A DNA stretch of 31,322 nucleotides, from positions 1 through 31,322 of the IMG/VR virus record IMGVR_UViG_3300012960_000002. The stretch is one strand, 5' to 3'. The notes beneath the pieces are model-generated. The model saw only the letters and a program-made list of their open reading frames with translations. It made no database searches and had not been told where the DNA came from. Below, piece after piece: positions 6,654 to 28,169 of this stretch; within the stretch, counting starts at the first letter, position 1, and each line of letters begins with the position of its first letter. The stretch is from a virus. Position numbers and translations under genes: made by a program.

Positions 6654-7271
6654 TCAGTACCGCGGGACGCTTCGGTCAACCGGCGCGGCCACGAAGGAGG
6701 TCAGGCCGGCGATGACGCGGATCGGCGCCTCCCCTGAAGCGTGCCGGCGCTCGGCACTCGTACGCTCGACGTCGGCGACTTCGTTGAAGGCTCGGCTGAA
6801 GATTCTGTCGACCTCTCTGATGCCCTCGCGGTCGAGCCACATGGGGAAGCGGATCAGGACGTGGTCCGGGTCGAGGTAGAAGCAGCCGTCTTCGAGCGAA
6901 CGAACCATCTCCTCGTGAAGCATCCGAGTGATCGTCGTCTCTGAGGTCGCCTTGACGACCGCAGGCAGTTGCTCCCACTCCTCGGCGTTGATCAGGCGCC
7001 GCTCTACAGCCTTGTAGATGTGTTCCCAGCCCCCACGGGGGCCGCGGCGTTTCTCAACCAGCTCGACAAGCGCCGGCGTCGCGCTCTTCAAGACGTTGAT
7101 CTGATCATAGACCTGGCGCTCTGACTTGCCGGTCACCTTGGCGAGCTGGCCCGGCGTGGCAGGCCCGTCGCCGAGCCGTAGAAGAATCTCATGGCGGAGC
7201 GGGTGCTGCAGCAGCTTATGGACTTCGATCGTCAGCTCGGGGATCGACGCGATGGCAGGTAGGTCAGGCAT
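6654..7271 (-). CDS. ArsR-type winged-helix regulator with C-terminal domain
   Basis: The 205-aa product has an N-terminal winged helix (about residues 12-80): LQHPLRHEILLRLGDGPATP, then LAKVTGKSERQVYDQINVL and a wing with RRGPRGGWEHIYK. The 'hP.R..IL' start and the 'EHiYkA' strand are characteristic of a regulator type abundant in Solirubrobacterales and relatives, which is the main host hint here. The C-terminal 110 residues are helical with a beta segment (CFYLDPDHVLIRFPMWLD) and may sense a ligand or dimerise. ATG 7271 is preferred over an upstream TTG at 7301. It lies between lysis and immunity genes and is a candidate for controlling the late promoters, which is inference only. Confidence 0.75.
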   Translation of the reverse strand: MPDLPAIASIPELTIEVHKLLQHPLRHEILLRLGDGPATPGQLAKVTGKSERQVYDQINVLKSATPALVELVEKRRGPRGGWEHIYKAVERRLINAEEWEQLPAVVKATSETTITRMLHEEMVRSLEDGCFYLDPDHVLIRFPMWLDREGIREVDRIFSRAFNEVADVERTSAERRHASGEAPIRVIAGLTSFVAAPVDRSVPRY

Positions 7272-7339
7272 GCCGTCCGACCCCGTGGAGATGCTTGCCA
7301 AGTCCGCTTACACACGGGCCTCGAAGGGAGGTGACGACC

Positions 7340-9292: not shown

Positions 9293-9580
9293 GTGAATCC
9301 GTGGGAGCAGATAGGCCGCGTCCTCGCCGAGGCCAAGCGCAACCGACTCCCCTGGAACGCCGCATGGCGCGAAGCAATGCGCACCCTCTCCCCCGAGCGC
9401 ACCGGCGGCCCCGGAATCGACCTCGTCAAGGATGAGCTGGCGAAAGAGCGCGAGCTACAGAAGGAACTGGCACCGTTCTGGCGCGCAGCCTACGAGGACC
9501 GCGAACCGACGTTGGAAGAGTGGGAGAAGGCGTCGAAACAGATCGAGCGCCGTCTAGACGAGATGTTCGCGCCGGCCTAG
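9293..9580 (+). CDS. Hypothetical plus-strand protein in the lysis region
   Basis: The 95-aa product starts MNPWEQIGRVLAEAKRNRLP and is helical and charged (LVKDELAKERELQKELAPFW ... LEEWEKASKQIERRLDEMF), with no signal or membrane segment. No family is recognised. GTG 9293 is chosen because a TAGGAT -10 lies 8 nt upstream. A TTG at 9257 in the same frame falls on the -35. It is divergent from endolysin and overlaps the convergent membrane gene by four bases. Independent strand and promoter suggest a gene expressed in lysogeny. Confidence 0.65.
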   Translation: MNPWEQIGRVLAEAKRNRLPWNAAWREAMRTLSPERTGGPGIDLVKDELAKERELQKELAPFWRAAYEDREPTLEEWEKASKQIERRLDEMFAPA

Positions 9581-22618: not shown

Positions 22619-22645
22619 ACGTTAGACAGGGGCTACGTTGACCCC
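22619..22645 (-). promoter_or_regulatory. Late promoter element, connector genes
   Basis: The minus strand reads GGGTCAACG, 11 nt, TAACGT, CGG, ending 10 nt before ATG 22608. Its upstream box encodes the GVN near the C-terminus of the preceding protein. Confidence 0.75.
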
Positions 22646-23617
22646 GGCTGCTTCTCGGATGGCCTCGGCGGCGCGGTCGGCGGCCTCGCCGCGGTGCGGG
22701 TAGACAGCGGCGACGATCTGCTGTCGACGCCCACGAATCTCGGGCGGGTCGGTCAGCGCGTGCCAGATCGACTCGCCCAGCTCGGGCGGCCGCTCTACCT
22801 GCAGACCCACGTCAGCGAACTCCCAGAAACGCAGCCCGTGCTCGACCTCCCGCCGGTACTCAGGGATGTTCAGCACCACCACAGGCATCACCGTCGCCGC
22901 CTCGTAGAGGGTGCTCGAGCAGTCGTTGACGTAGAGGTCGGCGCGGGCCAGAACGTCACGGAAGTCGGGCACCCACTCGACGCCCATCTTCCCCGCCCAG
23001 CGGGCGAGTCCGTTCTGCATCCGAGGGTGGCCGTGGATGATCAGGTCGTAGGGGCGTTTCGCCCGGACCAGATCTTCTACGGCGCGGCGGTAGTGGCGCC
23101 ATGCGCTCCAGGTCTCGCGGATCTTGTTGCCAGCCTGCTTGGTGTCCCAGTGAAAGGAGATGGCGACGACGGGACGGGCTCCGGGCTCGCGGTGGCGCAC
23201 CGGCAGCTGGTCGAGCTTGGGGCAGCCGACCACGTCGACCGGGATGCTCGGGTAGCTCGCGCGCCAGAGCACGGCGTTGTGCTCGTTGGGCGAGAGGAAG
23301 CGTACGACGCGGTCGAGGCCGGGACCACCCGCATAGCCCTTGTGCTCTCCGGTGACGAAGCCCTGACCGTTGCCGTGGGCCATGTAGACGACAGGTCCCT
23401 TGACGCGGTGGTAATCGCCGCGGGCAGCGCAGACGGTGAGCGTGTCGGCCGGGATCGGCGGGGCGGCGCCCTCGTAGCCGGTGGGAGTGATGCCGAGATC
23501 GAGTGCGTGGTCGACCAGCGCAGTCGGCACGTAGAAGTCGCCGCCGACCTGATGCCACACCGGCGCCAGGTGGTCGATGAAGTGGCGCATCCGGCCGGTG
23601 AAGGCGATGGGGGTCAC
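22622..23617 (-). CDS. GT-B glycosyl/glycerophosphotransferase-like protein
   Basis: The 331-aa product resembles CDP-glycerol glycerophosphotransferases and related GT-B enzymes: an N-terminal Rossmann part with HG (81-82), GCPKLD (131-136), an SFHWDT segment, HGHPR (195-199) and NDCSSTLYEAA (231-241), which matches the donor-binding 'S-S..E' loop. It would transfer a sugar or polyol phosphate in the cytoplasm. Being first-downstream of two other glycosyltransferases within the head module, it may decorate the capsid or modify host wall glycans. ATG/GTG start near 23617 overlaps the previous gene by 4 bases. Confidence 0.75.
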   Translation of the reverse strand: MTPIAFTGRMRHFIDHLAPVWHQVGGDFYVPTALVDHALDLGITPTGYEGAAPPIPADTLTVCAARGDYHRVKGPVVYMAHGNGQGFVTGEHKGYAGGPGLDRVVRFLSPNEHNAVLWRASYPSIPVDVVGCPKLDQLPVRHREPGARPVVAISFHWDTKQAGNKIRETWSAWRHYRRAVEDLVRAKRPYDLIIHGHPRMQNGLARWAGKMGVEWVPDFRDVLARADLYVNDCSSTLYEAATVMPVVVLNIPEYRREVEHGLRFWEFADVGLQVERPPELGESIWHALTDPPEIRGRRQQIVAAVYPHRGEAADRAAEAIREAAGVNVAPV

Positions 23618-24384
23618 CGGTGGTACCGACGATCCGACGGCTTCACGCCGCGCTCGATCTCTTCGGTTTCATCCCCTTTCACGGGTACGTCTAGGGGGTC
23701 CACTGCTCCTTCGGCCACCAGCTCCCGCATCGCCTCAACGTCCCCCCGCGCCGCGACGTAGCGCCCCTGCAAGGCGTGATTCCCAGGCGAGGTCTCGTGT
23801 TTTCCGTCCCGTAGCACGGGGGGGTGCCAGAGGTGGATCAGCGGCTTCCCGCTCTGGCGCCACTCCATGCCGACCAGCGTCCGCAGAGCGTCTCGCCAGG
23901 CGCAGTCCTCGCTCCCCCAGCCCGTGAAGCGCCGGTCGGGTGGCACCTGTTCCAGGGTCTCACGGCGGGCGACGAGAATCCCGCCGCCGGCGTGGCCGCG
24001 GTAGGGACGCTTCTCGGTCGCCAGCGCCTCGGGCGCCCTGCAGCCCGCGAGCAGTTCGCCGGTGGCGATCGGCGTCAGCCGGTGAACCTTCTCGTGCGGA
24101 ACCGCCCACGGCGCCCCTTCGCGCACCGCCTGCACGGCTTCACCGATCCCGTCACACCAGGAGTCGGCGTCGTTGACGATGACGATCTCGCGAGCGTCCG
24201 GCAGGGCGGATCGGATCGCCCCGCCCTTGCACCACTCGCCGTCGCTCGGTGGGCTGACCGCCAGGGCGCTCGCGTCACCCAGCAGATAGCCCGAGTAGCG
24301 CCCCAGCACGTAGTTCAGCGCCGCGGTGCGGTGGTCGCACTCCAGGCCCCAGTGCCAGGGGACGATGACGCTTACGTCGCCCAA
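23614..24384 (-). CDS. GT-A glycosyltransferase (GalNAc-transferase-like)
   Basis: The 256-aa product shows a GT-A fold: SVIVPWHWG near the N-terminus, an Asp-Ala-Asp motif (72-74, VNDADSWCDG) for metal and nucleotide sugar, and GGGILVARRETLEQV ... FTGWGSEDCAWR (155-160). The last is the acceptor/catalytic motif of galactosyl- and GalNAc-transferases. The TTG start at 24384 overlaps the preceding gene by 13 bases. No signal or membrane segment is present, so it should act on intracellular acceptors such as phage structural proteins. Confidence 0.8.
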   Translation of the reverse strand: MGDVSVIVPWHWGLECDHRTAALNYVLGRYSGYLLGDASALAVSPPSDGEWCKGGAIRSALPDAREIVIVNDADSWCDGIGEAVQAVREGAPWAVPHEKVHRLTPIATGELLAGCRAPEALATEKRPYRGHAGGGILVARRETLEQVPPDRRFTGWGSEDCAWRDALRTLVGMEWRQSGKPLIHLWHPPVLRDGKHETSPGNHALQGRYVAARGDVEAMRELVAEGAVDPLDVPVKGDETEEIERGVKPSDRRYHR

Positions 24385-25079
24385 AGCTTCCGTCGCTCTC
24401 GGAGCAATGCCTGGTCGGCGTCCCGGTTGGCCCGGTTTCCCTTGGCATCCGTGTCGTCGACCGGCCGGTTGCCGTGGTCGGGATGCAGGTGCTCGATGAT
24501 CGAGTTGGGAGCGTGGACGAAGAGCCCGCGCGCCTGCGCCGTCTCGCAGAGCTCTACGTCGATGCAGTTGTGGTGGTAACCCTCGTGGAAGACCTTGCCC
24601 GGTTCGTCGACAGTGCCGAGCTTGTCGATGTACCAGCGGGCAACGAGGATCTGCGTCGCGTACCGGCCGGTGCGGGTGTGGCGATTATGCAGATCGTAGG
24701 TCCCGATCACGCCAAAGCTGGGGGCGGGAAAGCTCGTCTCAGACAGGTTCGCGATGACTTCCCGATCTCGCTCCATCGCCTCCTCCCACCAGCGGGGGTG
24801 GAACTTCACGTCGTCGGCCGTCAGCAGCACCCAGGGCTCAGTCGTCGCCGCCACCGCCGCGTTGATCTTGTGCGGGTAGGTCCCGTCCTCCACCATCACC
24901 CGGACGTAGGGCTTGTCGAGGCGCTTGATCTCCCTGTAGGTCTCGGCGTCGTCGCGGTCAAGCACGAACACCACGGAGTAGATGCCCGTGGGAGTGTTGG
25001 CCTCGAGCGACTCCAGCAGCGGCGCCAGGGCGTGGGGCCGGCGCAGCGTGGGAACGAGGATCGCGACCGACGGGGCCAC
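24372..25079 (-). CDS. GT-A (family 2-like) glycosyltransferase
   Basis: The 235-aa product has the typical N-terminus (SVAILVPTLRRPHALAPLL), an Asp pair (VFVLDRDDAE), and the metal-binding region TADDVKFHPRWWEE (about 88-101). It also has a later acceptor-region His/Asp-rich segment (HEGYHHNCIDVELCETA). It lacks membrane segments. GTG 25079 lies 22 bp after the upstream stop, without a clear Shine-Dalgarno sequence. With the next two genes it forms a three-enzyme glycosylation cassette that would build a short glycan stepwise. Confidence 0.8.
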   Translation of the reverse strand: MAPSVAILVPTLRRPHALAPLLESLEANTPTGIYSVVFVLDRDDAETYREIKRLDKPYVRVMVEDGTYPHKINAAVAATTEPWVLLTADDVKFHPRWWEEAMERDREVIANLSETSFPAPSFGVIGTYDLHNRHTRTGRYATQILVARWYIDKLGTVDEPGKVFHEGYHHNCIDVELCETAQARGLFVHAPNSIIEHLHPDHGNRPVDDTDAKGNRANRDADQALLRERRKLWAT

Positions 25080-25872: not shown

Positions 25873-26877
25873 CTAGAAGCCCGAGCCGGAGCCAGCGCCG
25901 ATGGTGATCGGGTCGAGACCGTGGAGGTCGGCGACGGCCGCCTCTTCCTCGATGATCAGGTCGGCAGTCAGGAAGGTGACGTAGCCGCGCTTGCGCCGCA
26001 TCGCGAGCTCCCAGTCGGTCGCACCGGTAACCCGGTAGCGCTGGGTGTCCCAGGTGATGACGCGGTCGAAGTTCTCGGGGTCGGCCGGGATAATCCGGCC
26101 GTCCGGCATAAACGGGACGCCAGGCATAGGGGCCGAGGCGTCGCTGGCAGCGCCGACGAAGGGCGGGATGCCCAGCGGGAACAGATCCTTTGCCATGAGA
26201 GCGGCGTCGCCGGCAGCCGTCTCGCGATCGGTCAGGTATTCGATCCAGCTCGTCCAGCGGTTCGGAGACATGAACCAGCGCAGGCGGCCCGAGTTGACGT
26301 AGATGTCCGGCATCGCGTACTTGAGCGCGAACCAGACTTCCTTGTCCATCGCTCCGCCGGAGGTGAGACCCTGGGCATCGACGCGGTGAACGTCGGAGCT
26401 GGTCTCGCAGATCTTGAGGATGCCGTCGTCGAGCGAGACGAAGTCGTCGGAGTCTTCTTCGTCGCCGATCCAGTTCAGGTCATCGAGGTCGAGGGCGAAC
26501 TGGCGCGCCATGCGATCGACGATCTTGGGCTCGACCGCCTCGCCCTCGAGGTTGGTGTGGAAGAAGTTCTCCGTGATCTCGAACGGGAGGTGGACGGTCT
26601 TCGCGTCGTACTCGATGTCGTCCGTGGTGATGCCGGCGCGGTAGCCCGTGTCCGTGTTCTCGTTGTGGCGACGGATCAGCCGGGGGCTGTTGCCCATCTT
26701 GGTGAATTCGCCTTTTGGCTCGGGGCCGGGGCGCACCAGGTTGATCGCTTTGCCGAAGGCCGAGACCTCCATGACGCGCTGGATAAAGGCCTTGTCCTGC
26801 TTCGGGTTGAGCTGGCCGCCTGCACCCGTTTCAATCGTGGCCTTCTGGATTTTGGCCAGCAGTTCAGCGCGATTCAT
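25873..26877 (-). CDS. Major capsid protein (HK97 fold)
   Basis: The 334-aa product has an N-terminal helix, an E-loop-like region (LIRRHNENTDTGYRAGITTD), a strand and long helix (HLPFEITENFFHTNLEGEAV, then IVDRMARQFALDLDDLNWIG), and a C-terminal P-domain/A-domain part with VITWDTQRYRVTGATDWELA. There is no large cleaved N-terminal delta domain, so a separate scaffold is needed and is encoded just upstream. It ends GAGSGSGF, one of the Ser-Gly tails. ATG 26877 follows the scaffold stop after two bases. Confidence 0.88.
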   Translation of the reverse strand: MNRAELLAKIQKATIETGAGGQLNPKQDKAFIQRVMEVSAFGKAINLVRPGPEPKGEFTKMGNSPRLIRRHNENTDTGYRAGITTDDIEYDAKTVHLPFEITENFFHTNLEGEAVEPKIVDRMARQFALDLDDLNWIGDEEDSDDFVSLDDGILKICETSSDVHRVDAQGLTSGGAMDKEVWFALKYAMPDIYVNSGRLRWFMSPNRWTSWIEYLTDRETAAGDAALMAKDLFPLGIPPFVGAASDASAPMPGVPFMPDGRIIPADPENFDRVITWDTQRYRVTGATDWELAMRRKRGYVTFLTADLIIEEEAAVADLHGLDPITIGAGSGSGF

Positions 26878-26879
26878 GG

Positions 26880-27212
26880 TTAGACGATCCCCGCAAGGTC
26901 AGGGTCGAGGCCGGCAGCCTCGAACGATTTCGTGATCTCCTCGGGGGTCACCGGATCGGTGTCCTTGGAGCCATCCGTCTGCGAGGAGTCGCCCTCGCCG
27001 AGCTTCTCGACCTTCTCGCCGAGAGCCTTCACGAGAGTGGCGACGTCGCCCAACTCCTTCTTGACGTCCTCGACCGTCGGAGCCTCGGGCTCAGGCTTGA
27101 CCGCCTTGGCGATGTCGGCCACACCGTCGGTGAGCTTGGTGATCCCCTCGGCCAGGTCGGCCTGGGTTTTCTCCAGCTTCTCGAAGCGCTCTTTGGTCTC
27201 GGCGTCAGTCAT
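26880..27212 (-). CDS. Nested scaffold protein from internal in-frame start
   Basis: ATG 27212 (codon 309 of the protease frame) has GGAGAGGA upstream, and a late promoter -10 box ends 13 nt before it. It would yield a 110-aa acidic coiled-coil protein (TDAETKERFEKLEKTQADLA, then VKKELGDVATLVKALGEKVE), the size and composition of a scaffold. Separate expression would supply the excess of scaffold over protease needed for procapsid assembly. The same C-terminus, attached to protease, would target the enzyme into the procapsid. Confidence 0.7.
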   Translation of the reverse strand: MTDAETKERFEKLEKTQADLAEGITKLTDGVADIAKAVKPEPEAPTVEDVKKELGDVATLVKALGEKVEKLGEGDSSQTDGSKDTDPVTPEEITKSFEAAGLDPDLAGIV

Positions 27213-28136
27213 CGTGTCCTCTCCGAAGGTAGGGGTCGGCGGCGTTGACCCATCCGGGGCCGCGCCGAAGGCTTTGGCAAGCGCCTCTTCGCGCTCGGTC
27301 TTCTCGACGGGAACCGTGTCGAGCATCTCCAGCGCCCAGGCTTTGAACTCGTCGCAGGACTCGGAGATCAGGGTCTTGGGGTCGGCCGAGTCCTTGTCGA
27401 TGGGGAAGAAGGCGCCCCACACCGCATCGCGGAAGGCATCGAAGGCGAGTGGCAGAGCCTCATCGAATTCCCGCTGGGCGACGATCTCCCCGAAGGTGCG
27501 ATCCGACTTCTCGACCACCTCCGCGGGAAGGTCGCCCCGCTTCACCAAGACATCAACCACACGTTTCAGCAGGCTTTGTTCGGCCACGGAACCGACGGTA
27601 CGGCCGGCCCGCGTTGACCCCTTGCCCTTCTCGACGAGTTCGCGCACCGCGGTCCCCTCGATCGACACGCCCGTGAATTCGCCCTTCTCGATGGCGGCCT
27701 TGCCGTCCTCGGTCGGGGTGATGGCGATGTACCAGGAGCCCTTGGTGATGGTCTCCCCGTTGACGGTGAAGTCGGCCAGGGCGACGGCGTTCTCGACCAG
27801 CTGACCGAAGGGGTCGAGCGACTCGTGCAGCTTCGTGACGAGCCCGCCGTTGGCCATGAAACGGTGCGCGGCCTTGCGGATCTCATCCTCGCCCGCCCAC
27901 ACGTCATCGATGCCCGGAGCGCTCGCGCCCTGGCCGGGGTTCTCAGCCCAGCCGGGCTCGGCGACGACGCAGTAGACCGTCGACCAGTCCTCGGCTTTCA
28001 CCAGCCGGTGCGTGTTCGTCAGCGTCTCGGCTTCGTCGCCTTCGGCCTTGGTGAGGAAGAAGCGCTTGCGGTTGGCGCCCTTGTCGACGATGGAGATCGC
28101 CTTGATGTCAGCGTCGCGCAGGAGGTGGACCGGCAT
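26880..28136 (-). CDS. Prohead protease (XkdF-like) fused in frame to scaffold
   Basis: The 418-aa product begins MPVHLLRDADIKAISIVDKG and matches XkdF-type phage serine proteases: His104 (VTKLHESLDPFG), then GSWYIAITPTEDGKAAIEKG, and Ser158 in EFTGVSIEG as probable nucleophile. The protease domain covers about residues 1-180. A helical middle (184-300) leads to an acidic coiled-coil C-terminus (309-418) that looks like a scaffold. ATG 28136 lies 6 nt after a late promoter -10 box. A longer ATG at 28226 would run through a strong hairpin and looks non-coding. The layout mirrors lambda C/Nu3. Confidence 0.8.
   Translation of the reverse strand: MPVHLLRDADIKAISIVDKGANRKRFFLTKAEGDEAETLTNTHRLVKAEDWSTVYCVVAEPGWAENPGQGASAPGIDDVWAGEDEIRKAAHRFMANGGLVTKLHESLDPFGQLVENAVALADFTVNGETITKGSWYIAITPTEDGKAAIEKGEFTGVSIEGTAVRELVEKGKGSTRAGRTVGSVAEQSLLKRVVDVLVKRGDLPAEVVEKSDRTFGEIVAQREFDEALPLAFDAFRDAVWGAFFPIDKDSADPKTLISESCDEFKAWALEMLDTVPVEKTEREEALAKAFGAAPDGSTPPTPTFGEDTMTDAETKERFEKLEKTQADLAEGITKLTDGVADIAKAVKPEPEAPTVEDVKKELGDVATLVKALGEKVEKLGEGDSSQTDGSKDTDPVTPEEITKSFEAAGLDPDLAGIV
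27226..27252 (-). promoter_or_regulatory. Late promoter element, scaffold and capsid
   Basis: The minus strand reads TGGGTCAACG, 11 nt, TACCTT, CGG, inside the protease frame and 13 nt before the nested scaffold ATG 27212. Confidence 0.75.
27595..27621 (-). promoter_or_regulatory. Intragenic late promoter element in protease gene
   Basis: The minus strand reads GGGTCAACG, 11 nt, TACCGT, CGG, ending 7 nt before an in-frame GTG (27587, codon 184). It could give a leaderless mRNA for a 235-aa protein lacking the protease domain, and adds transcripts for scaffold and capsid. Confidence 0.7.
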
Positions 28137-28142
28137 GGAGTT

Positions 28143-28169
28143 AGCGTGCCGACCGGCCGCGTTGACCCC
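28143..28169 (-). promoter_or_regulatory. Late promoter element, protease
   Basis: The minus strand reads GGGTCAACG, 11 nt, CACGCT, AA, ending 6 nt before ATG 28136. The hairpin at 28176-28215 lies just upstream. Confidence 0.75.

Follow-up and report, generated by a model that had tools for sequence, protein, structure and literature searches.

How a phage that carries its head maturation protease and its putative scaffold in a single reading frame could adjust the amount of one to that of the other is the question raised by the IMG/VR virus record IMGVR_UViG_3300012960_000002, of which positions 1 to 31,322 (31,322 nucleotides, hereafter the window) were analysed. The gene concerned lies on the minus strand, from 28136 down to 26880, and encodes 418 residues without a stop. 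The explanation that we regard as probable for the locus as a whole is that of a nested protease/scaffold gene with internal late promoters specific to the phage. These candidate promoters are copies of a repeated element, one ahead of the gene (P1) and two within it (P2 and P3).

The identity of the gene product is well defined in its N-terminal part. Residues 51-165 match the family PF14550 (Peptidase_S78_2/XkdF; E 4.5e-17, 62.7 bits against a curated cut-off of 24), and the longer stretch 6-393 matches phrog_3017 (head maturation protease; E 1.9e-40). The C-terminal 110 residues, counted from an ATG at 27212 (codon 309), are acidic (isoelectric point 4.3, net charge -13), and their profile matches designed coiled coils in the PDB. 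The claim of a preliminary description of this DNA, namely, that an XkdF-like frame continues without a stop into an acidic coiled coil of 110 residues, is borne out by these matches. The protease gene is preceded by portal and morphogenesis genes and followed by a capsid gene of the XkdG type (phrog_1623).

The element consists of the box GGGTCAACG, followed by 11-12 nt and then by YANNNT. In the window, the box is present in 12 exact copies, all on the minus (coding) strand, against 0.42 expected. IMG/VR yielded two relatives, G001 (44.6 kb; 13 copies) and G002 (41.9 kb; 11 copies), each phage having all of its copies on one strand; the three phages together hold 36 exact copies, with a coding-strand ratio of 36:0. 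GGGTCAACG tops the coding-strand 9-mers of the window phage and those of all three phages pooled, and in each relative it ranks first or one copy short of first. All 36 copies are followed by xAnnnT at a spacer of 11 nt (33 sites) or 12 nt (three sites), an arrangement found at 5.1% of random positions. This half is mostly YANNNT, with an A and a T three apart conserved at 33 and 34 of the 36 sites, and the sequence after it is G-rich, which is, in form, a primary-sigma -10 with its discriminator. Transcription start points can be predicted from the spacing: with +1 set 7 nt past the T, the box would lie at -32 to -24, and an ATG or GTG then falls at the predicted +1 (offset 32 or 33 from the box) at 20 of the 36 sites, compared with 1.6 expected. 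Most of the remaining sites have a start codon at offset 36-45, and orthologous sites mostly keep the same class, leaderless or short leader, across the three phages. A weight-matrix scan added only one clear site, GGGTCAACA at 31373 of G001, with a sharp score gap to all others, which leaves no large class of weak sites.

The distribution of the copies points in the same direction. They are confined to the structural and lysis (late) region, and the early arm has none. Across 14 host-order genomes, drawn from those matched by the dnaG of G001 (see below) and amounting to about 45 Mb, the bipartite pattern was found 8 times, against 4 for a reversed control; a host regulon is disfavoured by this near-control level. 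Confinement to the late region and the background level in these genomes together support the prediction of a phage-specific late promoter. A scan of IMG/VR for the bipartite pattern returned 45 loci which, except for G002, hold one or two isolated copies each and are thus chance occurrences. The preliminary description had already taken the elements for late promoters, and the spacing, the strand bias, the late-region placement just ahead of gene starts and the conservation in two relatives all agree with it. If so, the element represents a sharply defined class of late promoters in Solirubrobacterales phages.

Other copies were noticed at further genes. In all three phages, the element is present inside a tail-region gene (20832-20671, minus strand; G001 29587; G002 27697), where an in-frame ATG after it predicts a C-terminal product of 39-40 residues ending just before the next gene. 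At 10546-10470 (minus strand) and at G001 20338, it precedes a leaderless-type open reading frame (ORF) of 12-14 codons, and both loci share the stretch GAACCGAGCGGGGCCGGTGATTG before the gene of a small membrane protein, possibly a holin. In G001, an HNH endonuclease-like gene located before the protease gene (L006 5420-6001) has its own element, with a GTG at the predicted +1.

With regard to the protease gene itself, P2 and P3 both lie inside the ORF and upstream of the scaffold start, as judged from sequence and conservation: both are present in G001 and G002 at the same protein positions, and the relatives have about 100-140 extra residues immediately ahead of the first internal copy. At P1, the ATG at 28136 falls at offset 32, the predicted +1, suggesting a leaderless message. 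Downstream of the first internal copy, each of the three phages has an in-frame GTG at offset 33 (codon 184 in the window gene); downstream of the second, an ATG with a Shine-Dalgarno sequence (SD) is found at offsets 39, 45 and 42. This SD is AGAGGA in the window, and AGAGGA and AAGGAG in the relatives. Three promoters stacked before scaffold and capsid, one of them preceding an in-frame GTG at codon 184 and another an internal ATG with its own ribosome-binding site, had been proposed in the preliminary description; the boxes at 28168, 27620 and 27251, which are among the 12 exact copies, correspond to them, and the ATG with its SD and element is kept in both relatives. The position 28143 given there for the first element needs correction, in that the element is real, but 28143 is the end of its -10 half and the first base of its box is 28168.

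The two internal copies are read by the codons GGG TCA ACG (G-S-T), identical at both sites in all three phages, TCA representing 5.6% of Ser codons. It could be argued from this common reading that the elements are coincidental and encode a conserved G-S-T linker peptide. We find this hardly credible, given that the rare codons are identical, that the sequence is exactly that of the intergenic element with a -10 half at the exact spacing, and that other gene-embedded copies are read in another frame. Where the element is located at the end of a different late gene, it is read V-N instead of G-S-T, so the constraint acts on the DNA.

In none of the three phages does the capsid gene have its own element; it would be transcribed from P1-P3, of which P3 is the nearest. 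The internal promoters might thus be real and serve the capsid gene, with no separate scaffold or middle product, and with free scaffold either released by proteolysis or not made at all. We hold this to be unlikely. A start codon with an SD stands right after P3 in all three phages, despite the fact that the residues around this nested start are not conserved among them, and a homologous start is kept across the XkdF family.

This family-wide start was followed in about 100 XkdF loci, of which 97 are whole genes, clustered to 33 representatives of less than 80% identity. In the alignment, 32 non-window rows, mostly from unrelated phages, were considered, leaving out L116 of the Bacillus PBP180 group. 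The column of the nested start contains ATG in 18 rows, GTG in 12 and TTG in two, hence a start codon in 32 of 32 rows, which share descent, multiplied codon frequencies giving no formal probability. The residue varies between Met, Val and Leu, the codon is always a start codon and usually has an SD, and the tree requires at least eight switches between start codons; where the genes have GTG at this position, it accounts for 19% of their Val codons. In the zone 88-120 codons ahead of the stop, 28 of the 33 representatives have an in-frame start whose SD measures 5 nt or more (mean 11.4, maximum 16 in synonymous shuffles), and 23 have one whose SD measures 6 nt or more (mean 6.1, maximum 12). 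The density of such starts is 0.022 per codon in this zone versus 0.0007 elsewhere in the gene. Altogether, the homologous internal start was found in 32 of the 33 representatives, L116 having no start in the zone. In the distant XkdF proteins of Enterococcus phage EG-TP1, Lactococcus phage 28201 and Dulem virus 37, too, the coiled coil is immediately preceded by an in-frame start that has a strong SD.

In lambda, the scaffold Nu3 is the C-terminal part of the protease gene C, and an internal ATG with its own SD provides free scaffold beside the protease-scaffold fusion. The window gene is similar in having an in-frame internal start with an SD before a coiled-coil C-terminal domain, but its protease belongs to an unrelated family (XkdF, S78-like), and it has predicted promoters inside and possibly a third product. 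A start codon occupies the homologous column in every row, and internal translation of a scaffold within the protease gene thus seems to be a general feature of the sampled XkdF family, following the lambda C/Nu3 principle. The nested scaffold of the preliminary description is thereby on firmer ground than the window alone could give it. Proteases of the XkdF/phrog_3017 type in Lactococcus 28201, Enterococcus EG-TP1, Bacillus PBP180 and other phages are homologous and stand in a similar order, portal, XkdF, capsid; GGGTCAACG promoters, by contrast, were found in the window and its two relatives only. The predicted internal promoters are therefore specific to these three phages, on top of the family-wide nesting. 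Four XkdF-type phage records were inspected, and none has a separate scaffold gene annotated. For a large set of phage and prophage genomes, the family-wide start indicates the probable location of the scaffold. No relevant report was found in the literature on XkdF and scaffold, which is weak evidence, as subscription journals were thinly covered.

A family-wide internal start requires no promoter, and control by translation alone, as in lambda C/Nu3, would leave GGGTCAACG as a binding site with another role, such as antitermination, packaging or replication. The fixed YANNNT spacing, the strand bias and the starts at the predicted +1 suit a promoter and not a general binding site, which makes this alternative decidedly improbable in our view.

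According to the nested-promoter interpretation that we favour, P1 would give rise to the full-length protein, an XkdF protease with a C-terminal coiled-coil scaffold domain, and re-entry of the same frame at ATG 27212 would yield a free scaffold of 110 residues, which should be needed in excess over the protease. P2 and P3 would feed this internal start, and their transcripts would continue into the capsid gene, so that the protease would depend on one promoter, and scaffold and capsid on up to three. The GTG at the predicted +1 of P2 would make the middle product, a helical domain plus the scaffold, probably leaderless; a third product from this codon is plausible. Translation of all three products can thus be proposed, with a protease:scaffold ratio that would be controlled transcriptionally, and the arrangement would likely serve to produce more scaffold and capsid than protease.

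As for the host, G001 carries an integrase gene at one of its ends and a bacterial dnaG at the opposite one, and hence is a prophage in a host chromosome. The best matches of this dnaG (up to 86% identity) are to Solirubrobacterales, other Thermoleophilia or Actinomycetota metagenome-assembled genomes. The window phage is a phage of a soil bacterium, with Solirubrobacterales as the predicted host order. No relative was found in the bacterial genomes scanned with a portal alignment, nor any close relative of the proteins searched in the reference phage collection.

As to how the promoter is read, most likely a phage-made, trans-acting activator would bind GGGTCAACG at about -28, with YANNNT being read by the primary sigma factor of the host, as with MotA in T4. 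The T4 MotA box is about 9 bp long, centred at -30, lies 12 +/- 1 bp from a primary-sigma -10 and replaces the -35 (PMC2988021). The geometry in the window phage, a 9-bp box at 11 (12) bp from YANNNT, is close to it; the box sequence is different and invariant instead of tolerant, the genes are late and not middle genes, and the starts are often leaderless. For leaderless initiation in mycobacteria, a 5'-terminal ATG or GTG is both required and sufficient (PMC4633059), and leaderless promoters whose +1 is the first-codon ATG or GTG have been described in actinobacteria and cluster O mycobacteriophages (PMC4633059, PMC4351075). The predicted +1 at ATG or GTG is shared with these promoters, unlike the single phage-specific late promoter class observed here, with one such site intragenic. 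One candidate activator is a winged-helix regulator (HTH_20; 6654-7301, minus strand) at the early/late border, common to all three phages; with about 30% identity, its conservation is low for a protein recognising an invariant 9-mer, and it is disfavoured.

An alternative sigma factor of the extracytoplasmic function (ECF) type could also read these promoters, a question that concerns the reader alone and not the nesting. AAC followed 15 nt later by CGTC, a geometry resembling AAC-N15-CGTC, is indeed seen at several sites. Yet the conserved -10 is YAnnnT and not CGTC, and the pattern is near background in the host-order genomes, so that we consider an ECF-type reader doubtful.

Several points weigh against the nested gene with internal promoters. 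The scaffold role of the coiled coil is suggested by gene order and composition, and structure prediction of the 418-residue protein from three sequences gave a predicted local distance difference test score (pLDDT) of 35. The predicted +1 of P3, at about 27219, falls inside the SD, so that P3 transcripts of the window phage would have a leader as short as about 7 nt; messages from P1 and P2 may be the main users of the SD. GTG represents 32% of Val codons here, and GTG 184 could be an ordinary Val codon. No match to Sigma70_r2 or r4_2 over the cut-off was obtained in the three phages, whose contigs are possibly incomplete, a result that may also speak against an ECF sigma; the better of the weak sigma matches (G001 41358-41447) belongs to a protein resembling a small terminase subunit and containing a helix-turn-helix motif, and was rejected. 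No MotA or AsiA homologue was named among 23 early and right-end proteins of G001 (best 25 of 35 PHROG families). Finally, the promoters are carried by three phages, and the window contig is probably incomplete.

Although the likeness to lambda C/Nu3 stressed in the preliminary description is apt for translation, herpesvirus UL26/UL26.5 offers the better parallel for transcription. Phages and herpesviruses have a common capsid ancestry. In herpesviruses, UL26.5 has its own promoter within UL26, and the scaffold message is in frame and 3'-coterminal (PMC4498786, PMC10284419); for the cytomegalovirus assemblin nested gene family, four nested 3'-coterminal messages are described (PMC4498786 and its references 6-7; PMC10284419). 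The window gene likewise has predicted promoters inside the protease ORF, whereas the herpesvirus promoters are eukaryotic and the protease fold is S21; the resemblance is likely convergent. We see about even chances that this gene is the phage counterpart of the herpesvirus protease/scaffold gene, with three stacked phage-specific promoters (two of them intragenic) and three 3'-coterminal messages, for the protease-scaffold, a leaderless middle product and the free scaffold, built over an old and widespread XkdF internal start that is unannotated in the inspected records. Should the internal promoters be in use, the same transcriptional solution to the protease:scaffold ratio would have been reached by phages and by herpesviruses.

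Table 1. Features of the protease/scaffold locus and its surroundings in the window.
Feature	Positions	Strand	Remarks
XkdF-type head maturation protease, fused in frame to acidic coiled coil, 418 residues	26880..28136	-	PF14550, phrog_3017
Predicted promoter P1	28143..28168	-	box GGGTCAACG 28168-28160; 11-nt spacer; -10 CACGCT 28148-28143
Predicted internal promoter P2	27595..27620	-	box 27620-27612; -10 TACCGT 27600-27595; site, spacing and codons identical in both relatives
Putative nested product 2, 235 residues from GTG 27587 (codon 184)	26880..27587	-	translation predicted
Predicted internal promoter P3	27226..27251	-	box 27251-27243; -10 TACCTT 27231-27226
Shine-Dalgarno AGAGGA of nested scaffold ORF	27217..27222	-	
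Nested scaffold ORF, 110 residues, ATG codon 309	26880..27212	-	family-wide internal start; coiled coil
Capsid gene, XkdG-like	25873..26877	-	phrog_1623; lacks its own element, P3 being the closest one upstream
Extra box copy upstream of P1	28282..28290	-	GAGACT as -10-like half; no start at the usual offset
Perfect 18-bp hairpin between 28290 box and P1	28176..28215	-	-35 kcal/mol, z -6.4, no U run; possible terminator or processing site

Further features were noticed elsewhere in the window. An ORF of about 95 residues (9295-9580, plus strand), kept in the three phages with 43-52% identity, is isolated among the late genes of the minus strand and oriented divergently from the endolysin; the element there, read as its reverse complement, includes TTGACC, and TAGGAT follows about 16 nt further. 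Between the tail and connector genes (22622-25079, minus strand), two glycosyltransferase-like genes and a 331-residue gene of unassigned family are located, of which no counterpart was found in G001. Furthermore, a 23-bp unit is present at 320-365 in two identical tandem copies.
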